Shown one piece after another: positions 1 to 21,884 of a stretch of DNA of 22,144 bases (within the stretch, counting starts at the first letter, position 1; each line of letters opens with the position of its first letter). Source of the DNA: a virus. The position numbers and the translations under genes are program-made. The notes under the pieces were generated by a model. That model was not told the DNA's origin. It saw only the letters and a list, made by a program, of their open reading frames with translations, and did no database searches. The DNA lies in IMG/VR virus record IMGVR_UViG_3300042905_001114, positions 1 through 22,144 of that record, one strand, 5' to 3'.

Positions 1-3000
1 ATCACGCCAGCGGCTGCGGCTACTCCACAGGAAATCCTAACGAACCTCGAAAGCTTTGCTATCTCCGAGGCACAAGACCGTGACTTCGACCAAGACGCGT
101 TCCTTGAAGGTGTAGATGACATCCGCAATGGCCGCGAACCGATGTCCTACTCCGACGCGCTTAAAACCTACGGTCTCGACAATGCAAAAATCCCCCTTGG
201 GCCATCTGAGGGCGGCGATGTAGCCCTCTCGCGTGTAGCTGGGGCGCAGTGGGCGCAGGAACGTGTCGCCGAAGCGCAAACTGCTGCACCAGTTGTACAG
301 GAACCTGTACAGGAAACTACTGCTACACCAGCACCCGCAGAGGTTGCGTCCGAGATTCCTCCTGCTGCGGCTCCTCCGGGTGCGCCGCCTATCCCGCCTA
401 CGGCTCCGCCCGCCACTGGTGGTCCGAGTGCGCCCGCACCTAGAAAACCCAAGGTCGTTTCCAATGGTAAGCCGGTTGTCCTAACCGAAGCGCAGAAGCG
501 CACGGCACTGGCAAAGGCCAAGGCTATCCGGACTAAGATGAACCGTATCCAGAAGCGGATTGCGGCTACTAACGATACGGCTGACGTTCTGAGCGATGGG
601 ATTGACCTCGTTAAACTGGCACGTGGTGACAAGGAAAACTGGGCGCTACTGCGTGGGGCCATTGACACCGTTGATATTGGTAAGTGGCAACTGATCCTGC
701 CTACCCTCTCGACCGAAGATATTTTCCGTGTTTTGAAGGGGCGCATTCCGGGTCTTACTGAGGCTGACCGGATCACTCAGCAGGATATCACTCGGTTCCA
801 GACCAAGGAATATTTAAAGCTTGCCGATGAGTTGGAGCAGGTCGCTGACTTCCTGAAGAAGTATCCGAAGGCCGCACAGGCTCTATCGGACCTTGAGTTC
901 GCCACTGTGGCATATCAGGTGGACCCGACCAAGGCAGCTACGCCTGAGGCGTATGCCAAACTCGACAAGAAAACCAAGGAGCTTCAGACCGAACTGGGGA
1001 ACGTCACGGTTGGTGACGCCAAAGGTAAAAAGAAGGTCGAAGATAAAATCGCTCGCCGATTCGAAGATATCAAGAGCGTCTACGTAGGTGTTCCCGGTGA
1101 CGAGCGCGTCATCGGTTGGCGTGATCTTGGTCGTCCGGAGTTTGGTGGCGGTAAAGGCCGTGAAATTTTTAAGCTCCTGCGGGATGGCCATCGGCGCGAT
1201 TTGGAAGCCAAGTATGATGCGCTGCGTTCGCGTCTCATGGAGACCAAGAAAGACGAGGCACTCGACGAGGCATTGGAGAAGCTCGAAGCGCAGTTCAAAC
1301 CGGCACGGGAGCAGGTTATCTACTTCCCAGCTATGCGCTTTGGTTCCTACTACGCACGTGTGGGTACGGGCGCTAATAGCATTTTCAAACTGTTTGAGAC
1401 CTCAACCCAACGGAACCAGTTCGTACGGATAATGGAGTCTCGTGGTGAGGAAGTCACCGAGACTGGGAATGTGGAAGACCTCCGCAACCAGTTCGGACAG
1501 ATGGCGGGTGGTCCGCTGAAGGAAGTCCTCGACCTGTTTGAGGGTGACCAGAAAGACCTCGGTGCACTTAGAAGCCAAGTCTTTGATCTGTGGCTTCAGA
1601 CCATGTCGGCTGGTGATATGCGTAAGCACATGGCTCCGCGTAAGATGCGCGCTGGTTACAGCACCGACATCCTGAAAAACTTTGCCAACTTCCGACGCGC
1701 ATCCATTAACGATGTGAAGCGCGCTAAGTTCGGGGAAAAGCTACGAACAGAGATTTCCCGGGCCAAGGATATGGTCAAGGATATGCCTGACCGTGAGAAG
1801 ATGAACGTCTTCATCAAGGAGATCGAACTCCGCACGTTGAGCGACCTAATGCCACCGGAGCGGGGCAACCCTTATTGGGAGGGCGCTATCGAGCTTGGTA
1901 ATAAGATGGCCTTCTACCAGTATTTGGCTAACCCTAAGACTGCGCTTATTCAGCTTACGCAGCTTCACATTGTGGCGCTCCCGATATTGGCCCAGAAATA
2001 TGGGTCGGCCAAGGCCACTGCCGCTCTCAGCAAGTACGGTTTCTCTAGCCTTGGTGGTTTCGTCACCAGTCCGTTGAAGGCAATCAAGCGCGAGGATGGC
2101 AGTTTTACCTTTGATTGGGAGCAGCCCAACCTACTCGACAACCCGATCTCGGCGCTCAAGGAAGAGAGCGATCCGGAACTGTACGAAGTGTTGTCGGAAG
2201 GGTGGAACGAAGGCCGCGACCTAAACCTTTGGATGGATACCTTTGCCAACCAGATTGGCGGCTATGGTAATGCTGACCCCCAGCAGAGCAGCGCTCTTCA
2301 GGAACTTATGAAAGGCCGTGTGCACACGGCTGCTTGGCGCGGTACAACCTTCGCTTTCGAGGCCATGGGTACGCTCATGCACCAGATGGAGCGCGTGAAC
2401 CGCGAAGCTACCTACATGGCCGCGCTGGAACTGGCGTATCGGGAGAATAAGAAAAAGGGGCAGACCCACGCCGAAGCAAAGAAGAACGCCATCGAAGCGG
2501 CTGTGGAGACTACGCTAGCAGCTACCTTCGACTTCTCATCGTACAACAAGCCACGTGTCCTCAACACAGGGATAGGGCGTCTGGCGGGGCAGTTCATGAG
2601 CTACCCGTACATGATGACGTCGCTGCTGGCACGGAACATGTACACGGCTATTAAGGTTAGCGGGCTTGAACCCGGAGAGCGGAAAGCTGCTATCCAGACT
2701 GCGACTGGCGCACTTTTCAATATCGGCCTCTATGCAGGTCTCACCGGAGTGCCGTTGTATGGTCTCTCCACCACCATCGCTAGCATGTTGTTATGGGCGT
2801 TTGGCGATGACGAGGAGGAAGAAGGCGGTCTCAGCTATCTCGACGAGAACGGCAACATCAAGGCCACCTATAATGTTGACTGGTGGTTCCGGAACGTCTG
2901 GATACCCAAGTTCTTTGGGTCGGATGGCACGGTCGCCAATCTCTTCGGGCTTGATGATGACACCGCTGAAGTTGTGGCACGTTCGGTTGAGAAAGGACCG

Positions 3001-3711
3001 ATCTCGGCCATCACTGATATCGACCTATCCAACTCAGTGGCGCTCGACTTCCTGTTCTTTGTGCCAAGGGAATCTCGGGCTGAGACACCAGAAGGCAAGG
3101 TTGTGGAGTACACATTCAGCGCCCTGACCGGGGCGGCTGGCAACATGGTCATGGATTACCTGAAGGCCGGTAAGGACTTGATAAACGGTTACACCAACCG
3201 TGCTTTGGAGAAAACGCCAAAACTGTTCAGCAACGTCGCCAAGGCCAACCGCTTCGCTACCGAAGGCCAGACAAATTATGCCCGTGAATTGGTCGGCATG
3301 GACAAGGACTTCTGGAGCAGCGACAAAGTTATCCTCCAAGCCCTTGGTTTTGCTTCAACCGAAGCCAGCCAGAAACAGCAGCAAAACTACGAAGCCAAGT
3401 CTATCGACGTCAAGGTCAAGAAGGCCCGTGAAGACTTCCTGAACAAACTACGTAAGACTGCGCTTGACCGCTACCAGTACGGCAGTACCCCAGAGACAGA
3501 TGCTGCGCAGCAGCAGATTGTAAAGGATTGGGTCACGTTCAACCAGACCTATCCGACTCATGTAATTGGGATAGACTCGTTCTACGAGGTTCAAAACAAC
3601 GCGGTGAATAACGCTGTCGAAAGTTATGGCACTCGTGGATTGCCAATGGATGAGAGTACCCCATACCTAAGCGATCTCTATCTGCGCCGTCTCGAAACCG
3701 AGAAACAATAA
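1..3711 (+). CDS. Giant PLxRFG-type virion protein, 5' end outside window
   Basis: The reading frame is open from base 1, so the gene starts upstream; 1236 codons plus TAA are visible. The ATG at 142 is internal, not a supported start. Window codons about 95-155 form a Pro/Ala-rich linker. Codons 443-448 read PAMRFG inside an aromatic YF-PAMRFG-SYY context, matching the PLxRFG signature of very large phage proteins. Codons 901-935 are hydrophobic and glycine-rich, enough for one or two membrane-crossing helices, followed by an acidic DDEEEEGG stretch. Long charged helical segments fill much of the rest. Proteins of this class are known as giant phage structural proteins and are often assumed to be internal proteins ejected with the DNA; that role is inference here. 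It is the only rightward gene and converges with the leftward operons. Confident for family, moderate for role. Confidence 0.75.
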   Translation: MTPAAAATPQEILTNLESFAISEAQDRDFDQDAFLEGVDDIRNGREPMSYSDALKTYGLDNAKIPLGPSEGGDVALSRVAGAQWAQERVAEAQTAAPVVQEPVQETTATPAPAEVASEIPPAAAPPGAPPIPPTAPPATGGPSAPAPRKPKVVSNGKPVVLTEAQKRTALAKAKAIRTKMNRIQKRIAATNDTADVLSDGIDLVKLARGDKENWALLRGAIDTVDIGKWQLILPTLSTEDIFRVLKGRIPGLTEADRITQQDITRFQTKEYLKLADELEQVADFLKKYPKAAQALSDLEFATVAYQVDPTKAATPEAYAKLDKKTKELQTELGNVTVGDAKGKKKVEDKIARRFEDIKSVYVGVPGDERVIGWRDLGRPEFGGGKGREIFKLLRDGHRRDLEAKYDALRSRLMETKKDEALDEALEKLEAQFKPAREQVIYFPAMRFGSYYARVGTGANSIFKLFETSTQRNQFVRIMESRGEEVTETGNVEDLRNQFGQMAGGPLKEVLDLFEGDQKDLGALRSQVFDLWLQTMSAGDMRKHMAPRKMRAGYSTDILKNFANFRRASINDVKRAKFGEKLRTEISRAKDMVKDMPDREKMNVFIKEIELRTLSDLMPPERGNPYWEGAIELGNKMAFYQYLANPKTALIQLTQLHIVALPILAQKYGSAKATAALSKYGFSSLGGFVTSPLKAIKREDGSFTFDWEQPNLLDNPISALKEESDPELYEVLSEGWNEGRDLNLWMDTFANQIGGYGNADPQQSSALQELMKGRVHTAAWRGTTFAFEAMGTLMHQMERVNREATYMAALELAYRENKKKGQTHAEAKKNAIEAAVETTLAATFDFSSYNKPRVLNTGIGRLAGQFMSYPYMMTSLLARNMYTAIKVSGLEPGERKAAIQTATGALFNIGLYAGLTGVPLYGLSTTIASMLLWAFGDDEEEEGGLSYLDENGNIKATYNVDWWFRNVWIPKFFGSDGTVANLFGLDDDTAEVVARSVEKGPISAITDIDLSNSVALDFLFFVPRESRAETPEGKVVEYTFSALTGAAGNMVMDYLKAGKDLINGYTNRALEKTPKLFSNVAKANRFATEGQTNYARELVGMDKDFWSSDKVILQALGFASTEASQKQQQNYEAKSIDVKVKKAREDFLNKLRKTALDRYQYGSTPETDAAQQQIVKDWVTFNQTYPTHVIGIDSFYEVQNNAVNNAVESYGTRGLPMDESTPYLSDLYLRRLETEKQ

Positions 3712-8282: not shown

Positions 8283-8687
8283 TTACTTCTCGCTAGGTTT
8301 GCGGACTTGGATGACGTACTTATTATCGACTTGGAGGCCGATGGGAAGAGCGTCCGGATTCTCTTCCAAGAATTGCTTCATATTACCGTTGTGGATGCGC
8401 TTTTCCAACAGATGCACGGCTTCGTTCTCGACGATAAATTCGTTCATCTTCTCCCAATCGGTGGTCCAATAGCGCGTTTGCACACGCCGTGATACCGTCC
8501 CCACTGGGGTCTTCACGCTATCAAGGTTCTGCGTATTACAGAAGTTCAGAAGCTCACCGGACACAAGGTCCAGCTTCTCCTTAAGCGAGGCCACACGGGC
8601 CTCATGGGCTTCTTCTGCCTCCGCTATGGCTGCGCGTAACTTACGATACGCAGACACGAGGTCATTAACTGGTATTTGTTCTGACAT
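8283..8687 (-). CDS. Conserved phage protein of the SSB operon, 134 aa
   Basis: First gene of the promoter-8786 transcript. Residues 10-48 are strongly helical and charged, a probable coiled coil; the rest (KTPVGTVSRRVQTRYW, then a helical segment and VDNKYVIQVRK at the end) looks compact and basic. The overall plan resembles phage proteins found next to SSB genes, loosely like Gp157 or Gam-type host-nuclease inhibitors, but I cannot name a family with confidence. The ATG has AAGGAG five bases upstream, part of the extended GGAGCAAAC ribosome site seen in this genome. A structured leader of about 90 bases precedes it. Confidence 0.75.
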   Translation of the reverse strand: MSEQIPVNDLVSAYRKLRAAIAEAEEAHEARVASLKEKLDLVSGELLNFCNTQNLDSVKTPVGTVSRRVQTRYWTTDWEKMNEFIVENEAVHLLEKRIHNGNMKQFLEENPDALPIGLQVDNKYVIQVRKPSEK

Positions 8688-8785: not shown

Positions 8786-8814
8786 CTTATACTCCTTATA
8801 TTATACAGTGTCAA
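8786..8814 (-). promoter_or_regulatory. Sigma70-like promoter for the SSB-primase operon
   Basis: On the minus strand a perfect -35 TTGACA (8814-8809) is followed after 17 bases by TATAAG (8791-8786), five of six to the -10 consensus. The -35 lies in the last codons of the SNF2 helicase gene. The spacer also holds TATAAT and the first of two tandem TATAAGGAG copies (8792-8800 and 8783-8791). Predicted start is near 8779. Together with the host-like boxes this suggests use of the host RNA polymerase. Confidence 0.7.
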
Positions 8815-14506: not shown

Positions 14507-15152
14507 TAAACATCTCCATTATTTTTTCTTCGCTAAACAGTTTGAGGGTGCGAATTACCTCGGCGTCATCCTGCCTAGATGCGGGTGCCGCAGGTGCGCC
14601 ACGCACCGTCATGTTCAAAGGTGCTCTCAACGTGCGGATGAACGCACCTTCCACGCGGTCTAAATCGTCCTTCGGCCAAGGTAAGAAGAAAACTCGATCA
14701 AATGTCTTACCTGCGTGTGCTGTAATACGCGCAGTGATATTCACCGATTGCCCTACGTAAACGACCTCTTGTTTGTAGCATAGGAAGTAGATGCCGGAGC
14801 CTACCATAAAGTCACCCAGATCGCGCAAGTTAGGCACCGCTTGGATTGCGTATGGGACATCCTGAGGGTTGGCACGGGGTTTGTGGGCCACGACAATCAC
14901 AGGTTCGGGTAGGTCCTTACCTGCGTTATACTGCATTATATTTTTGACCGCCCAGCGTTTCACCTCGACTAACTTGAAACGGATTTCTCCACCGTCAATC
15001 TTATAATGCGGGGCAAAGCCGCTATTCGCTAGGTCAGTAATCCGTGTGGCAGACACCCCCAGCTTATCGGCTACTTCGTCCGCGTTAATCAATCCGCTAG
15101 GCCACTCATCCAGTATATGGGTGATATTCAAACGCTCCATGCTATCCGCCAT
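14499..15152 (-). CDS. HTH/GIY-YIG nuclease fusion, 217 aa
   Basis: The N-terminal 70 residues look like an excisionase or MerR-type helix-turn-helix (INADEVADKLGVSATRITDL, then a wing and VKRWAVK). Residues 118-182 are a GIY-YIG nuclease: GIY (120-122), YVG (132-134), catalytic-type R142, metal-binding E168 and N180 in APLN. Such enzymes cut one strand or both at sites set by the attached domain. Usual phage GIY-YIG homing enzymes have the nuclease first; here the DNA-binding part comes first, which is less usual. The gene overlaps the polymerase end by 11 bases and has GGGAG six bases before its ATG. It could be a freestanding homing endonuclease or a branch-cutting repair enzyme. Confidence 0.85.
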   Translation of the reverse strand: MADSMERLNITHILDEWPSGLINADEVADKLGVSATRITDLANSGFAPHYKIDGGEIRFKLVEVKRWAVKNIMQYNAGKDLPEPVIVVAHKPRANPQDVPYAIQAVPNLRDLGDFMVGSGIYFLCYKQEVVYVGQSVNITARITAHAGKTFDRVFFLPWPKDDLDRVEGAFIRTLRAPLNMTVRGAPAAPASRQDDAEVIRTLKLFSEEKIMEMFND

Positions 15153-16965
15153 AACTCACTCCCATCTTGCTCTCACAGTTCAACGGCAGCAGCGTTGCCC
15201 ACTTGGGGCGTATACGCATACACTGCTCCACATATTCTCTTGCCTCTGCGGCTTTCCCTGTAGGGGCGATTGCTCCTACTGCGTCATGTACAGTCATCAC
15301 CACTCGCAGGCGTCGTGCGACCATCAGCATCTGTTCGCCAATCACGATACGCGCCAAGGCTTGGCAGATATTCTCCACCAGCTTCCCACCGTAGATGCGG
15401 GTCGGGATGACGGCGCGGCCCTTCTTCTGGTCGTAGACCATCTCATTGTGGTTACCACCCAGCATAGGTTTCCAGCGCAGGTTTGGATATTTAAGGCTCA
15501 ACCCATTGGGTAGCTTGATGCCGTCCTTACCATACACCACCAGCACACCGTCCAGCCCTATCGGGGCCGTCTGGTTGTTAGCCATAGCATCCAGCGCGTC
15601 CCCAGCCTGACGCCATAGCTTGGGTATCATGGGGTAGGTCTCACGGTATACCGTGATAATGCGTTTGCACTCCTCCGCTGGCATATCGACACCGAAGGTC
15701 TTTAGCTGCGCTTGGAACTTCACAGCGCCCATACCATACCCTGCACCAAGGATGGTGGTCTTACCCACGAACCTCTGCGGGTCTGTCACCTCATCGACAG
15801 GCACACCGTAGATGGAAGACGCCATAATCTTATACACGTCCTCACCTTTGTCGAACGCATCAACGAGGTCATACTGCCCAGCCAGCCACGCCAAGGTCCG
15901 CGCTTCGATCTGGCTGCTATCGCAGTCGATAAAGATATACCCGTCTGGTGCGCGCATCGCCTTCTTCAATGGTGACTTGCGGGGTAGGTTCTGGAGGTTA
16001 ACCTTATCGTCCCCTCCCCATCGCCCAGTATGTGCAGCGTAGTAGCGTAGAGGCACAGGCAATGTGCCGCGCTCCGCAATCTTGATGAACCGCTCGGTGC
16101 GTGTCTCTTCCAGCGTAGACTTTACCCCTAGCCGCGCAGCGACAATCGCTTGCACCTGTGGGTTCTCATGGTCCAGCAGCGCCTTGAAAGCCTCGTCGTT
16201 CTTGGCGAAGGCGTAGGTCTCCTTACCCGTAGCAGGGCTAACCTTCATCGGCACATCAACCCCATGAAACACCAGCAGTTCAGCCAGCTTGGGGTTGCTC
16301 ATCAGGTCAGCCTTGTCGTAGTTCAGCTTGGACATGAGCGCTTCCTTGGCACTCTTCACATTAGACAGGTGGTTTGTGAGGACTTCTTTGTCTAAGCTTA
16401 GCACAGGCTCCGTAAACATCCGGATCGTCAGGTCTATTAGACGTAGCTCAATAGCAGGAAAGCCAGCCGCGATCCGTTGGAACAGTTCATAGGTCAGGTC
16501 GGTATCGTTGATACAATACCCAGCGTAACGCGCCATCTCGTCTGGCTCAAAATCCAAACGTGTCTTGCCCAGTGCGTTCAGCACCTCGTTACCCTTGACG
16601 CCCAGCCCATATCGCTCGGCAGCTTTAGCTAGGCTGTTACCCGCATCAGGCCCATCAATGGCGCGAAGCATGGAGAGCGTGTCAGCAATCCGCTTGGGGC
16701 GGATGTCGAAGTGCCAGTTGAGGATAGCCATGTCGAACACAGCGTTGTGCGCCACAGCAATGCTGTTGTCCCAGTCAAACTGGTCAAGCCACGCCTTAGT
16801 CTTCGCCTTGGTCCCACTGAACCATTGCGCCTCCTCGTCGTTGCGCTTTACTGATACGCCGATAACCTCAAACATCTCGTCGCGGATATACTCCTCCGTT
16901 GTCACCTTGGATAACGAATAGCTCCGGTCGTAGAAGGTCTCGAAGTCGATGGTCAGGATGTTCAC
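15142..16965 (-). CDS. Family A DNA polymerase with 3'-5' exonuclease
   Basis: Replicative polymerase, 607 aa. Exonuclease motifs: DFE (D7, E9), HNAVFD (73-78) and YCIND (Y150, D154). Polymerase motifs: TGRWGG and NLQNLPR (313-329), motif A DSSQIEAR (349-356), motif B R398-K402-Y410-G411 and motif C VHD (559-561). All catalytic residues expected for both activities are present. There is no 5'-nuclease domain, as usual in phages, and it is somewhat shorter than T7 polymerase. A TTG at 17001 extends the frame, but the GTG at 16965 sits in a GTGA overlap with the upstream stop, starts two strands before the exonuclease motif and has GAGG upstream, so I use it. Confidence 0.93.
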   Translation of the reverse strand: MNILTIDFETFYDRSYSLSKVTTEEYIRDEMFEVIGVSVKRNDEEAQWFSGTKAKTKAWLDQFDWDNSIAVAHNAVFDMAILNWHFDIRPKRIADTLSMLRAIDGPDAGNSLAKAAERYGLGVKGNEVLNALGKTRLDFEPDEMARYAGYCINDTDLTYELFQRIAAGFPAIELRLIDLTIRMFTEPVLSLDKEVLTNHLSNVKSAKEALMSKLNYDKADLMSNPKLAELLVFHGVDVPMKVSPATGKETYAFAKNDEAFKALLDHENPQVQAIVAARLGVKSTLEETRTERFIKIAERGTLPVPLRYYAAHTGRWGGDDKVNLQNLPRKSPLKKAMRAPDGYIFIDCDSSQIEARTLAWLAGQYDLVDAFDKGEDVYKIMASSIYGVPVDEVTDPQRFVGKTTILGAGYGMGAVKFQAQLKTFGVDMPAEECKRIITVYRETYPMIPKLWRQAGDALDAMANNQTAPIGLDGVLVVYGKDGIKLPNGLSLKYPNLRWKPMLGGNHNEMVYDQKKGRAVIPTRIYGGKLVENICQALARIVIGEQMLMVARRLRVVMTVHDAVGAIAPTGKAAEAREYVEQCMRIRPKWATLLPLNCESKMGVSYGG

Positions 16966-17168
16966 TGGCCCATCGCCTCTTCCACGGTCATCTTGGGGCA
17001 ACGGTCACTTGGTTTGATCTCAATGCTCTCGATGGTGTAGAAGCTAGGTCCGCACTCCACTATGTCTTGAAGTTCGAAAAGTTCCTCGACGTTAATTGTG
17101 GTGCTGCGTGGCCCATCTCCGTGGTGATAGGTCAGCGTTACCGTCCAGCGTGGTTTTGTATCGTTCAT
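16962..17168 (-). CDS. Unknown small protein, 68 aa
   Basis: A compact, beta-rich protein beginning MNDTKPRWTVTLTYHHGDG with a short acidic helix (VEELFELQDIV) and ending TVEEAMGQ. No family recognised. The frame is open further upstream, but ATG 17168 forms an ATGA overlap with the VRR-NUC stop and its own stop overlaps the polymerase GTG, so this start fits the tight operon. It may be a polymerase-operon accessory protein. Confidence 0.65.
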   Translation of the reverse strand: MNDTKPRWTVTLTYHHGDGPRSTTINVEELFELQDIVECGPSFYTIESIEIKPSDRCPKMTVEEAMGQ

Positions 17169-17485
17169 TGTGTGTCTCCTATGATAGTAGCAGCCTTGAG
17201 CTTGCGGATAAGTTCGCGCACCATGTCCCAGTTCTCTTCGTTCACCACCACGGCCACGCCATTGTTGCGCCGGATAGCTTCGATCTCGCTGACTTGTAGT
17301 GCGGTAGGTTTGTTCGTCCCAGCCTTGCACTCGACAGCAAGGAATAGTCCGTTCACGCAGATGATGATGTCGGGGACGCCGCTGCGTCCGTAGCCGTGGG
17401 TTGCAGGGAAAAAGTAATAGACGCTCTCTTCTTTGAGAACGCGAACGACCTTCTCCTTCACCCTTTTCTCAGGTGTAGATGCCAT
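17165..17485 (-). CDS. VRR-NUC domain nuclease (PD-(D/E)XK)
   Basis: The 106 aa protein is a single VRR-NUC domain: GRSGVPDIII (D39), VECKAG with E52 and K54, and Q64 in TALQ, the canonical order. Standalone phage VRR-NUC proteins are thought to cut Holliday or flap structures, as the domain does in FAN1. It starts the polymerase operon, with AAGGAGCAAACAAC before its ATG. The intergenic space upstream carries a hairpin, a TTGACA motif and one copy of the 25-base repeat, so this is probably where the operon is controlled. Confidence 0.88.
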   Translation of the reverse strand: MASTPEKRVKEKVVRVLKEESVYYFFPATHGYGRSGVPDIIICVNGLFLAVECKAGTNKPTALQVSEIEAIRRNNGVAVVVNEENWDMVRELIRKLKAATIIGDTQ

Positions 17486-17577: not shown

Positions 17578-18453
17578 TTATCCCTCTGCTTTCTTGTCCA
17601 TAACGAAGTAGAGGTTGGTGTTGACGCGGACGCCTACACCGTCAATGTAGCCCTTGACGTCCATCAGCTTGAGTAGGCCCAGCGCACCGCGCAGGTGGTC
17701 GGTCAGCGATGCGTCTGTGTAGGTCACCGCATCAAAGCCATCGTTAGCCCTACGCGAGACAAGGTAAGCGCCGTTGGACTCGATACGCACAGTGACGCCG
17801 TTGTTGTCGTTATAGAAGCCCATCAGCATAATAGCCTCCTGATTAGCTTCGGCCAGCGCGGGGAAGTCCATATCATCAGCATTAAGGTATTGCTTGATGT
17901 CGCCCCAGTTACGTGCCGCATACTCGAACAGCCGGTCCTCAATCCGTCCCTTGGCACGACGGAAGGGCCATGATGTCTCGGAGGCTATACCGTTGATTAC
18001 GGAGTGCGTCTCCTTGTGTGCATCAGCAGCGCGTTCCTTGGGTGTCTTGAGGTGGAACGCCTTGACGATACGCTTGGCCGCAACGTCTGGCTTGGTAGAG
18101 AAGGTCTTCATGTGGCGTTGGCTCATCTGTGTGAGCCGGAAGTTGTCGAAGAAGTAACGGATGGTCTCGTCGCGCCAGTGCGTCTCAATCCACAGCTTCC
18201 CAAGCTCCTCGTCATTATCAAAGATAACAAGCTCACTTACTCTTGGGTTGCTACCATAAGGCCCGAACGATTGCTTAGACTTGTAGCGCCATGTCGGACG
18301 CTCCTTCATCAGTCTATCTAGCACTGGGGGGAGCGCGGTGTGTAGAGTAATCACCCGATCTGGGTATTCGGGCCGCTCAAGCGCCTCCTCATGCACAAGG
18401 TTCTTCATGCTATTGAGGTAGGTGTAACGGTTCTTGATGTCGTCGATAAACAT
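17578..18453 (-). CDS. Unknown protein, 291 aa, last gene of the AAA+/VWA operon
   Basis: No family recognised. Residues 1-110 look mixed alpha/beta (WIETHWRDETIRYFFDNF); 120-200 are helical and basic with QRHMKTF and KTPKERAADAHKE; the last 80 alternate strands (GVTVRIESNGAYLVSR, GYIDGVGVRVNTNLYFVMD). There is no membrane helix, signal or nuclease motif. The ATG shares one base with the previous stop and has AAGGAGCAGAC upstream, a variant of the extended ribosome site. Being the last gene after ATPase and VWA genes, it may be a client or partner of that complex. Confidence 0.7.
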   Translation of the reverse strand: MFIDDIKNRYTYLNSMKNLVHEEALERPEYPDRVITLHTALPPVLDRLMKERPTWRYKSKQSFGPYGSNPRVSELVIFDNDEELGKLWIETHWRDETIRYFFDNFRLTQMSQRHMKTFSTKPDVAAKRIVKAFHLKTPKERAADAHKETHSVINGIASETSWPFRRAKGRIEDRLFEYAARNWGDIKQYLNADDMDFPALAEANQEAIMLMGFYNDNNGVTVRIESNGAYLVSRRANDGFDAVTYTDASLTDHLRGALGLLKLMDVKGYIDGVGVRVNTNLYFVMDKKAEG

Positions 18454-18653
18454 TAGTCTGCTCCTTCTGCTAATTTCTGTAGTCCGATGGTGTATGCCTC
18501 TAGCTCGTCACGAGCTATGATGTTGGGGAACACATACTTCAAGCCGTTGCCGCCATGCGTCCAATACACGGAGAAGTATTTTGTCTCCCCGTAACCCCAT
18601 GCCTCCACCTCATATATCTGGTGTTCACCACTCGTATTGTTTGAGGATGGCAT
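18453..18653 (-). CDS. Unknown small protein, 66 aa
   Basis: A short gene with an ATG preceded by AGGGA, overlapping the end of the DUF3150-like gene by 29 bases and the next ATG by one base. The protein is rich in Tyr, Trp and Gly (YEVEAWGYGETKYFSVYW, HGGNGLKYVF) with a helical end (DELEAYTIGLQKLAEG), so it is probably a small beta sheet plus helix. Function unknown. Conserved overlap on both sides supports it as a real gene. Confidence 0.6.
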   Translation of the reverse strand: MPSSNNTSGEHQIYEVEAWGYGETKYFSVYWTHGGNGLKYVFPNIIARDELEAYTIGLQKLAEGAD

Positions 18654-19476
18654 CTAACTTTCCCTTCACATCTTCGCGCACGTCGATGCTCTCTTTGATC
18701 TCGTCGATGTCCACGTTGGCAATGGCACGCTCAAGTCCACGCCTTGCCTCTTCTAGAGTAGGGTCACGGGTCACGTTCAGGTGGGTCAACATACTGCACA
18801 TCTCTTGTGCGTTGGTGATGAACGTATCGTGCCAGCGGCGCTTGTCCTCATCCTCTGGCTCGACCAGCTTGTCTGACATGCGTGATACCATGTCGTGCAG
18901 CTTGCTCCATTGCTCACGCATGGCAGCCTCGACACGCTCATTGGCATGGGTTTCATACTGCATCCGCATCGCGTCTAGCTCCTGCTTTGGTAGGTCTAGA
19001 CGGAAGTCGCCTGCATCAGGCACAGGTGAGAACACAAGACGGAACCCGAACTTGGAACGCACCTCGTCAGTGTCGGGGTAGTCCATTGGGTCGAACAGGT
19101 CGCCAAGGTAGTTGTGTGCGGTGTGCACCAGACTCGGGTAAGCAATAAGGAACTCGCTCACCTTGTTGTCGAAGTAGGCTTGACGCGCATTGGCCTCGGT
19201 CTTGTAGTCAAAGAATAGCGACGTAGGTAGAAGCCTCGGCCCTCGATCAGCCCAAGGCATGGTGCGGGTGTTGTGCCACAGGCGGCAGCCAGCAGCGTAG
19301 TCAGCAATCTCCTTACGTAGATGGCTCCCTGCCATAAGGTTCTTGCGGAACTGCCCAGCGTCAGCAGACGCACGGTTATCGTCAGCCACCTTGCGACTTG
19401 CGTCCTTGTCGATTTTGTTGGCTGTCCATACGGAGATGTTAAGCTCGGTCAGCATTGCTGCATTTGAGATGGTCAT
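18625..19476 (-). CDS. DUF3150-like helical protein, third member of the AAA+/VWA module
   Basis: The 283 aa protein is highly helical. The pattern NISVWTANKID, the CRLWHNTRTMPW segment, LIAYPSLV and RLVFSPVP followed by a long charged helix (about 170-215) and an acidic C-terminal region resembles, from memory, DUF3150 proteins that accompany phage and bacterial MoxR/VWA gene pairs. The role is unknown; by position it may be substrate or adapter of the ATPase. AAGGAGCAAACC stands before the ATG, only 12 bases after the ATPase gene. Alternative: an unrelated coiled-coil protein; family confidence is moderate. Confidence 0.6.
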   Translation of the reverse strand: MTISNAAMLTELNISVWTANKIDKDASRKVADDNRASADAGQFRKNLMAGSHLRKEIADYAAGCRLWHNTRTMPWADRGPRLLPTSLFFDYKTEANARQAYFDNKVSEFLIAYPSLVHTAHNYLGDLFDPMDYPDTDEVRSKFGFRLVFSPVPDAGDFRLDLPKQELDAMRMQYETHANERVEAAMREQWSKLHDMVSRMSDKLVEPEDEDKRRWHDTFITNAQEMCSMLTHLNVTRDPTLEEARRGLERAIANVDIDEIKESIDVREDVKGKLDAILKQYEW

Positions 19477-19487
19477 TGGTTTGCTCC

Positions 19488-20564
19488 TTAGAGGATGTCT
19501 TGGTTGTCACGCGCCCAGTCAGTGAACGCTTTGTTGGTGAACGCTATCTTCTGCTTGGACTTGGACCGTGCCAGCGACGTGCAGAACACGGCTTGGTATT
19601 CTTCTTCGAGGCGACGGACATATTTCATGATGGGTGCGATGGTCTCACCGTCCACCGCACGTTCAAGGTTGAACAACAGTGTTACGACTGCGCCAGTAGA
19701 CGTAGGTATCGTAGCCGACTCGGGCGTAGCGATGATGCTCTCGCGGGTAGGTATCTCATCCTGATACGCAAGGAAGGATGCAATGTCGTTAGCCCCTGCG
19801 CTCCCTACTGTGCCTACTAGCGCACAGGTAAGCGCGTTAGTGCTGATCCGGTCACGGCCCCACATGACGTTGGAGCCAAGCTCAAGGGAGCGCGGCGTGA
19901 TGAACTTACCCTGCACTCGCTTAGGGTTGTAGACGTAGGGGTTGTCGGTGTCGAAGTCGTCGTCTCTGAATGAGGATAACACTGTAGGTGTTTGGTTAAC
20001 CCACGCCATGAGCGCAGGGTGGATGTTGTTCTCGGCAGCCCACGGCAGCCACTCGCTGGCGTTGGCCTTGCGGACCTCGACCACAGTCAGACGGTCGATG
20101 CTATGGTCAAGCAGCGTATCGCCAAGCCCTTCTTCAGACAGGTTGGTGGTTAGGAATACGATACTACCCTCTGGCAGCATGGTGTCTTGGATGCGCTTGT
20201 TGTTCACCTCAAGCAAGGTGTGCATCATGTTCTGGATGGAGCGCGGCGCTTTGCCGAACTCGTCAAGCATAATGACAACAGGCTTACCCGTGTGCAGCTT
20301 GAGCGCCGTGTTGATGAAGAACTCCATAACCTTGCGCTCCTTGTCGGGGAACGGGATGGCAGTGTCGCCCTCGGACTTGTTGCCCATGTCGAAGTAGGCA
20401 TACTCATAGCCGGAGCCAAGCAGGTCGGGCAGTAGCTTCATGATCGAAGACTTGCCGATGCCCTTCTCGCCCTTGAGTAGGATGGTGTTGGTTGTGCCGA
20501 TGGCAGCGATAAGCTCGGCTGCTTCTTGCAGTGAAACGCGATTGGTAAAGTCGATGTTGCTCAT
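19488..20564 (-). CDS. MoxR/CobS-like AAA+ ATPase
   Basis: The 358 aa ATPase has Walker A GEKGIGKSS (32-40), Walker B VVIMLDEFGKA (96-106, D101 and E102), sensor 1 in FLTTNLSEEG (N141) and an arginine-finger candidate R158 in HSIDRLTVVEV, the MoxR/CobS order. Members form hexamers that remodel partners bound through VWA proteins; CobS with CobT inserts cobalt, RavA with ViaA acts in stress. Here the VWA partner is encoded directly upstream. GGAG stands eight bases before the ATG. The substrate in the phage is unknown. Confidence 0.88.
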   Translation of the reverse strand: MSNIDFTNRVSLQEAAELIAAIGTTNTILLKGEKGIGKSSIMKLLPDLLGSGYEYAYFDMGNKSEGDTAIPFPDKERKVMEFFINTALKLHTGKPVVIMLDEFGKAPRSIQNMMHTLLEVNNKRIQDTMLPEGSIVFLTTNLSEEGLGDTLLDHSIDRLTVVEVRKANASEWLPWAAENNIHPALMAWVNQTPTVLSSFRDDDFDTDNPYVYNPKRVQGKFITPRSLELGSNVMWGRDRISTNALTCALVGTVGSAGANDIASFLAYQDEIPTRESIIATPESATIPTSTGAVVTLLFNLERAVDGETIAPIMKYVRRLEEEYQAVFCTSLARSKSKQKIAFTNKAFTDWARDNQDIL

Positions 20565-20580
20565 GGTATTTGCTCCTTTG

Positions 20581-21768
20581 TTATTGAACGTGGACGGTCT
20601 TGCCCGTCTTACTTGTTACGCTTGGGTTGCCACATATCACCCACAGGATGGGTGCTGGCCAGTTGTCGCCCCATTGGTCAAAGACGTGCCCGTCCGTGAA
20701 CATAATGATGCAGTCAGGTTTGATGTTGTTCTCTTTAAGGTATCGTTGGACGCAGCGCGGGTCAGTGCCACCGCCACCCTTGGGTCGCATAGCGTTAGCG
20801 ATACCCTCGTAGTCGCCACGCTTGTATTCCTCGTGGCCCGTCACCTCGCCGTCCCAGTAAAGCAGGTCAACGTGCTCTGGGTTTACTTGGTTCACGACAC
20901 CAACGAACTCGGACAGGACTTTCTTCATGTCGGACGGGTCACCCATCCACATCGAGCCGGACAGGTCTGGACCTGCCACGATATGTCCAAGGCTCTCACC
21001 GTAGGTGGTGGGCATGATTAAGTCTAGTGCATGGAACCTACGGTTGAGGCGTCGATAGGTCGTATCGTCCTTGACGGTGCAATTCTGTGTGATGAACTCG
21101 CGCAGCGCGTCCTTCCAGTTGATCTGCGGACGTAGTAGCTCACCTATCTCGGCAGGGATGTCGCCCTTGCCAGCCCCGCAACGCTTGGCCTCGGCCTCAC
21201 CTCGACGCATGGCGTGTTCAATCTCCTTCTGTAGCGCGTCTTGCTCCTCCTTCGGTAGCTCCTGCGCGTCACCCCAGCCATGCTCGTCGAAGCCTTGGCT
21301 ATCGGATGGCGGGTCTTTCTTCAACAGGTCGAAGACTTGTCGCGCCGACATGCCGTCATACTTCTTATCATATAGGCCCATCCTGCTACCGTCTGGGTTG
21401 CGCGGGAACTGAACCACGCTCTCGGCGGGGTCAGCCGCCACAATCATACGGTTAACAACGTAGTCACAAGCCTGATTGGCGAGCGAGGCGTCTTCCTCGA
21501 ACAACTTGCGCCATACGGTCAGATGTCGAAGTCCCTTGTGCATCGCCTCGTGCAGACAGACGAAGCTAAGCTGTGCCACAGGCAACATCTCCACGAAGTC
21601 GCGGCCATAGACCTCGTCGCGTCCGTTGGTATATGCAGTTGGTGTAGTGTCACAGATGCTCGTCTTGCCGATTGCCATGATACCCGACCACAACCGAAGG
21701 CTCGGAAGTGTCGAACGCATGACGTCGATTTTGGCTTTCTTGAGCTTGCGCTCGGCAGTTATCGTCAT
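20581..21768 (-). CDS. DUF2201-type protein: putative metallopeptidase plus VWA-like domain
   Basis: A 395 aa two-domain protein. The N-terminal half has a zinc-peptidase HEAMH (73-77) in FVCLHEAMHKGLRH, with a possible third ligand in the downstream NQACDYVVNRM (D102), the DUF2201 layout. Residues 150-220 are a charged linker. The C-terminal half is VWA-like with a full MIDAS: DLSGS (D268, S270, S272), T335 in GGGTD and D359 in FTDGH. It thus may bind and cut or position a protein substrate while coupled to the MoxR-type ATPase downstream. It is the first gene of its operon, with GGGAGCAAAACG before the ATG, a promoter at 21856-21884 and one copy of the 25-base repeat in its leader. Peptidase activity is predicted only. 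Confidence 0.82.
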   Translation of the reverse strand: MTITAERKLKKAKIDVMRSTLPSLRLWSGIMAIGKTSICDTTPTAYTNGRDEVYGRDFVEMLPVAQLSFVCLHEAMHKGLRHLTVWRKLFEEDASLANQACDYVVNRMIVAADPAESVVQFPRNPDGSRMGLYDKKYDGMSARQVFDLLKKDPPSDSQGFDEHGWGDAQELPKEEQDALQKEIEHAMRRGEAEAKRCGAGKGDIPAEIGELLRPQINWKDALREFITQNCTVKDDTTYRRLNRRFHALDLIMPTTYGESLGHIVAGPDLSGSMWMGDPSDMKKVLSEFVGVVNQVNPEHVDLLYWDGEVTGHEEYKRGDYEGIANAMRPKGGGGTDPRCVQRYLKENNIKPDCIIMFTDGHVFDQWGDNWPAPILWVICGNPSVTSKTGKTVHVQ

Positions 21769-21855: not shown

Positions 21856-21884
21856 TGTATAGCGTAGTAGCTATACAATGTCAA
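21856..21884 (-). promoter_or_regulatory. Sigma70-like promoter for the AAA+/VWA operon
   Basis: Perfect -35 TTGACA (21884-21879), 17-base spacer, -10 TATACA (21861-21856; four of six, with TATA kept). The -35 includes the TGA stop of the 51 aa gene. The spacer begins TTGTATAG, sharing the TTGACANTGTAT pattern with the other two gaps. Confidence 0.62.

Follow-up and report, generated by a model that had tools for sequence, protein, structure and literature searches.

A window of 22,144 bp, comprising the whole of a phage contig from IMG/VR (IMGVR_UViG_3300042905_001114), carries on its minus strand, from position 21768 to 17578, five adjacent open reading frames (ORFs) for a zincin-VWA protein, a MoxR-type AAA+ ATPase, a DUF3150-like protein and two further proteins of 66 and 291 aa. 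The analysis of this module reveals a large clade of uncultured water phages in which the first three genes (the trio) are joined by a constant fourth partner, the 291-aa protein (p291), which forms a new family. The ATPase/VWA pair and the trio themselves are of already known kinds, and the trio is not specific to phages. The favored explanation is that the module encodes an early-expressed AAA+ remodeling machine which serves the DNA metabolism of the mobile element itself; taken as a whole, this statement is given a probability of roughly 0.35. It draws on intact and conserved ATPase, MIDAS and HExxH sites, on a trio that is kept together, and on the presence of p291 in 123 of 124 loci. Further support comes from the position on the replication strand, an own σ70-like promoter, the existence of trios on plasmids, which have no virion, and the precedent of NorQ/NorD.

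The first gene of the module (20581–21768, minus strand) encodes the zincin-VWA protein of 395 aa, in which a DUF2201_N zincin domain (Pfam E-value 8.8e-19; 68.6 bits vs. a cut-off of 23.2) is fused to a DUF2201 VWA domain (3.5e-07; 30.8 vs. 26.4 bits). The protein also matches PHROG 1314 (5.8e-78), and its assignment is backed by conservation in 34–76 relatives. The HEAMH motif occupies residues 73–77, and together with further residues of the zincin domain it is conserved across 76 relatives: H73, E74 (99%), H77, N98, D102, and N106. Candidates for the third metal ligand of a putative peptidase site are likewise retained, D102 being invariant (100%) and H82 present in ~95% of relatives. The metal ion-dependent adhesion site (MIDAS), formed by D268/S270/S272, T335, and D359, is complete and invariant in relatives. 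The protein is predicted to grip a client via its MIDAS and, possibly, to cut it. Phage records contain 719 matches to it, gp25 of phage N4 among them. The description of PHROG 1314 as “HNH endonuclease” has spread to many phage annotations, among them many N4 gp25 homologs; judged by the domains, this label looks wrong, and the present analysis corrects it to DUF2201 zincin-VWA proteins.

The second gene (19488–20564, minus strand) encodes an ATPase of 358 aa with matches to AAA_5 (Pfam, 1e-06) and PHROG 1297 (1.3e-43). Walker A (G35, G37, K38) and Walker B (D101, E102), as well as N141, R158, and R225, are conserved in 70 relatives; Walker A, Walker B, sensor 1 and arginine residues are all intact in the protein of the window, which is predicted to hydrolyze ATP. 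When the family profile was compared with the PDB, midasin AAA modules scored best (4.5e-33), while NorQ (1.7e-06) and the weaker CbbQ ranked after many Clp matches. By profile matches, the ATPase is placed in the MoxR/midasin clade.

The third gene (18625–19476, minus strand) encodes a mostly helical protein of 283 aa, which is assigned by synteny, by an indirect link to PF11348 (DUF3150) and by an AlphaFold2 model. The protein itself has no Pfam match of any family, nor one to DUF3150 at E ≤ 1; one relative, L045, passes the DUF3150 gathering score (26.3 vs. 24.9 bits). In a profile comparison, the phage family and the DUF3150 proteins of conjugative plasmids were related with 96% (E-value 4.9e-09) when intermediates were included in the alignment, but the phages alone gave 2%; a direct link failed, and the relationship is therefore stated as indirect. 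The AlphaFold2 model (predicted local distance difference test, pLDDT, 80.2) has no fold match in the PDB. In nearly all inspected elements that carry it, the DUF gene is accompanied by the AAA and VWA genes, and because its gene travels with them, the DUF3150-like protein is probably a subunit of the machine.

The three genes are followed by the 66-aa gene (18453–18653, minus strand) and the p291 gene (17578–18453, minus strand). From the VWA gene onward, successive genes are separated by 16 and 11 nt, and the remaining two junctions are overlaps, of 29 nt and 1 nt. A reading of the same DNA from its letters alone (the sequence-only reading) had described five co-directional genes with HEAMH and MIDAS motifs under one promoter, and had combined a zincin/VWA protein, a MoxR-type ATPase and a DUF3150-like third partner in one operon. 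ORF positions, Pfam and conservation bear this out, with coordinates that agree exactly. The promoter, TTGACA-17-TATACA at 21884–21856 on the minus strand, precedes the start codon of the VWA gene by ~90 nt; the contig continues for 376 nt beyond this gene on its upstream side. An automatic promoter scan of the window missed this site. Promoter-like sites recur in relatives ahead of the gene that opens the module, mostly at a distance of 100–190 nt; they were found in 48 of 79 such windows compared to 52 of 585 random windows, counts that are not independent as some loci are closely related. The module is a tightly packed operon behind one conserved σ70-like promoter. A perfect 8-bp inverted repeat (21856–21877) overlaps the promoter and could be a local operator. 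An N4-like hairpin promoter at this repeat was considered and rejected: the perfect repeat is not kept in relatives, and with a z-score of −0.74 the hairpin is no stronger than in shuffled sequences.

The constancy of p291 emerged from a DUF profile search of viral contigs, in which at least 584 contigs matched and the best 80 were kept; adjacency was counted in loci with ≥900 nt of sequence after the DUF gene. The p291 gene follows the DUF gene on the same strand in 83 of 84 loci, with a median gap of 14 nt, and in 40 of 40 loci of a second set. In the sole exception (L114), a VWA gene lies downstream of the DUF gene, followed by the contig end. All four genes are present in 66 loci. This constancy was measured within one phage clade, the kept loci being mostly >50% identical. 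A ratio of nonsynonymous to synonymous substitution rates (dN/dS) of ~0.13–0.29 indicates purifying selection on p291, which is conserved in more than 100 loci. Its near-invariant residues (P53, W55, G85, R106, E140, L261, K262, and G274) are few and not suggestive of a catalytic site. The AlphaFold2 model (pLDDT 84.7; predicted template modeling score 0.55) shows two β-rich parts and a helical linker part with a 44-residue helix; it has no match with E ≤ 0.001 among PDB folds, and in BFVD it matches only unnamed proteins of uncultured phages. Sequence searches of p291 against phages, plasmids, GTDB genomes, Pfam, PHROGs, NCBIfam, PADLOC, and the PDB returned nothing above noise; in particular, none of the records of the phage collection gave a match. 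We infer that p291 acts as an adaptor.

The 66-aa gene is a local extra of one subgroup, found in ~12 loci, which are a minority of the closer relatives. Its dN/dS of ~0.2–0.9, over 63–66 codons that partly overlap another gene, is a weaker signal than that of p291. The protein has no match in the Pfam, PHROG, NCBIfam and PADLOC libraries and, when compared with the other small genes of the module, showed no relationship to them. The expectation that both proteins would stand beside the ATPase/VWA pair in related phages thus holds for p291 and fails for the 66-aa protein, and neither turned up in those N4-type phages and plasmids that were inspected. That they might be substrate or effector of the machine, as also suggested earlier, is not supported; there is no evidence either way. 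Other genes are linked to the module in the wider clade (L099, L156, L158, and ~100 related loci): a ~75-aa gene before the DUF gene (92 loci), a BrnA-like ~70-aa gene after p291 (100 loci), and a ~272-aa gene upstream of the AAA gene. All three are absent from the window or lie off the contig.

Within the clade, the usual gene order is AAA-VWA-DUF-p291-VRR nuclease-DNA polymerase, while the subgroup of the window has the VWA gene first; the trio is kept together despite shuffled order (VWA-AAA-DUF, AAA-VWA-DUF, AAA-DUF-VWA). In the window, the module shares its direction with the first downstream gene, which encodes a VRR-NUC/Hjc-like nuclease (17165–17485, minus strand; Pfam Hjc 0.00085, below the cut-off; PHROG 93, 4.4e-17), and with the gene for a family A DNA polymerase (15142–17001, minus strand; Pfam 3e-34), which is syntenic in the clade and marks the replication arm. 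The nuclease is a co-directional, syntenic neighbor and is not claimed as a subunit of the module. A 63-kb relative, G006, has the module, the VRR nuclease and the DNA polymerase on its plus strand, together with homologs of the exonuclease, the SNF2-type helicase and primase/helicase-like genes of the window; portal, terminase and structural genes are located on the opposite, minus strand. Similarly, the AAA/VWA pair of Vibrio phage D505 adjoins a Dda-like helicase a few genes from the DNA polymerase, and the VWA gene of Rhizobium phage RHph_TM29 lies two genes before the DNA polymerase. Gene 055 of RHph_TM29, which occupies the same place before the polymerase, was considered as a p291 homolog and rejected, as no homology was detectable, in a comparison of low power with a single sequence. 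Elsewhere in the window, a 5′-open ORF of ≥1236 aa (1–3711, plus strand) matches the DarB-like antirestriction PHROG 10089; its homolog in G006, an ORF of 2140 aa, is encoded on the same strand as the structural genes. A Mu Gam-like protein (8283–8687, minus strand) scores slightly below the Pfam threshold (27.6 vs. 28.3 bits) and is preceded by a promoter-like TTGACA-17-TATAAG at 8814 (minus strand).

The genomic position bears on a role in virion assembly and maturation, in which the ATPase and the VWA-peptidase would fold and process structural proteins. Such a role was proposed in print in 2021, when the MoxR/metallopeptidase-vWA pair of jumbo phages was described (PMC7824862); the pair is widely distributed in tailed phages, and the peptidase-less pair p618/p892 of the Acidianus two-tailed virus is reported to act in virion assembly or maturation. 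However, the module lies on the replication strand, behind its own σ70-like promoter and away from the structural arm, and homologous trios reside on plasmids, which do not form virions. Although gene position does not establish when a gene is expressed, and genes expressed early can contribute to assembly, this role appears doubtful.

The plasmid trios fall into two groups. In the first, a tblastn search with the DUF protein retrieved 44 plasmid records, mainly of Burkholderiales, and all that were inspected carry AAA-DUF-VWA. The three proteins of the Burkholderiales and Rhodovastum trio are homologous to those of the window over their full length (DUF profile match 100%, E-value 1.7e-50), but the gene order differs from that of the window, and neither the 291-aa nor the 66-aa protein was found. 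On several Burkholderiaceae plasmids the trio is located near PRTRC genes, a type IV secretion system (T4SS) operon or both, whereas Simplicispira and Rhodovastum have no such neighbors. On the Burkholderiaceae plasmids L032, L130, and L131, the trio follows the PRTRC system at a distance of a few kb, and on L032 and L131 it also precedes the T4SS operon; the PRTRC system and the trio are possibly linked as two uncharacterized plasmid modules.

The second group was reached through a literature lead to ORF100–103 of plasmid pCAR1 (PMC2642839), where ORF101–103 encode an AAA protein, a DUF3150 protein, and a VWA protein with HExxH and MIDAS. Relatives of the pCAR1 DUF3150 protein occur on 1,139 plasmid records, 983 of which are typed as conjugative, yet no mention of DUF3150 by name was found in a search of 5.39 million open-access papers. 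On an IncC plasmid and four others, the trio genes adjoin those for RecT/Bet and a lambda-type exonuclease, with ssb annotated in some; on pVgang, the exonuclease is the only recombination neighbor, and Aromatoleum plasmid 1 carries DUF3150 without an adjacent trio. The conjugative-plasmid trio shares with the window the three-part layout, HExxH, MIDAS and a clearly homologous ATPase (97.6%). It differs in its VWA protein, which has ~600 aa and is not a DUF2201 protein, in the lack of p291, and in its neighbors, which are ssb, RecT and exonuclease genes instead of a DNA polymerase gene. In SXT, deletions of bet, exo, s067, s068, and s070, a set that may or may not include trio-equivalent genes, reduced transfer tenfold at most (PMC2791158).

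As the trio serves both phages and plasmids, often beside DNA genes in both, a client on the DNA of the element itself is favored. This also bears on host takeover, in which the machine would take apart or cleave a complex of host proteins early in infection, with p291 as targeting adaptor; the sequence-only reading had likewise considered the disassembly or cleavage of a host complex. The early-type location and promoter, the conserved metal-site residues, and p291 as a variable, clade-specific partner would fit such a role; however, no data point to a host target, and the core trio is common to plasmids that live in their host without killing it. Host takeover seems unlikely. Defense against rival phages had been raised by the sequence-only reading, and bacterial MoxR/vWA ternary conflict systems do exist (PMC7159879). 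Nevertheless, the module is constant in the replication arm of the clade and not a variable cargo, PADLOC matches are weak and confined to the generic AAA domain, and no VMAP or effector family appeared among the Pfam, NCBIfam, and PADLOC matches of the five proteins (the VMAP model was not run separately). The plasmid trios, which frequently neighbor genes for recombination or transfer, suggest a function in processing the DNA of the element itself more than an attack on rival phages; defense is considered highly improbable.

For a machine acting in the DNA metabolism of the element, the following mechanism can be envisaged. By analogy to NorQ/NorD, six copies of the MoxR ATPase would assemble into a ring that works on the VWA protein as its arm. 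The MIDAS would grip the client, which the HExxH site might cut; the DUF3150-like protein would serve as third subunit or client adaptor, and p291 as a clade-specific, non-enzymatic adaptor. That the proteins assemble into a remodeling complex is likely, while the nature of the client, perhaps a complex of proteins bound to phage DNA that is being replicated or recombined, is more tentative. Interaction, peptidase activity and client are all predictions. A far-reaching version would be that phages and conjugative elements share an AAA+/zincin-VWA/DUF3150 machine which strips or cleaves proteins off the element's DNA during replication or establishment (e.g., single-strand-binding or recombination complexes, DNA-protein crosslinks), with p291, of a new fold, coupling it to the phage replisome; this appears quite improbable.

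Several observations weigh against the proposed role in DNA metabolism. Gene neighborhood in phages often reflects timing only. The link between the VWA proteins of the window and of the conjugative plasmids is weak (12%), although the HExxH and N...D columns do align, and that between the DUF proteins depends on the intermediates mentioned above. In phages N4 and D505, which carry the pair, no DUF or p291 gene was detectable; therefore, the pair does not generally require either of the two. Finally, the HExxH of one relative, L046, lacks the Glu, as might be expected of a NorQ/NorD-like chaperone or metal insertase without protease activity, whose zincin fold would be a structural or metal-binding remnant. 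The best-studied MoxR/VWA pairs indeed remodel or insert metal without cleavage (PMC9976466; PMC13036017). Apart from L046, H73, E74, H77, N98, D102, and N106 are kept in phages and plasmids, beyond the needs of the fold alone, and a machine devoid of peptidase activity is considered improbable. As for the CobN partner and cobalamin genes expected of a CobS/CobT cobaltochelatase, none was evident in the annotation of the window or among the scanned proteins of G006 (no search by gene name was made in either).

Among known systems, the pairs N4 gp24/gp25 and of jumbo phages (PHROG 1297/1314) come from the same AAA+ and DUF2201 zincin-VWA families, are encoded by adjacent genes, and include full-length homologs of the VWA protein of the window in N4 gp25 and D505; N4 and D505 differ from the window in the third and fourth partner. 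Synechococcus phage MinM2 also clusters MoxR, DUF3150-annotated, and VWA genes, but with small genes interspersed and no p291 detected. Many conjugative plasmids carry a MoxR-DUF3150-VWA trio. That a large phage clade has a relative of this trio in its replication arm, with a constant extra partner, narrows the purpose of the machine and offers a compact system for finding its client. Cellular pairs such as NorQ/NorD and RavA/ViaA likewise consist of a MoxR-clade ring and a VWA partner, but act on cellular clients, and NorD has no described zincin domain; to our knowledge, none of them has a DUF3150 partner. In NorQ/NorD, a finger of the VWA protein reaches into the pore of the AAA+ ring, and the client is presumed to be bound by the MIDAS (PMC9976466; PMC13036017). 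The cellular pairs and the machine of the window probably share this working principle.

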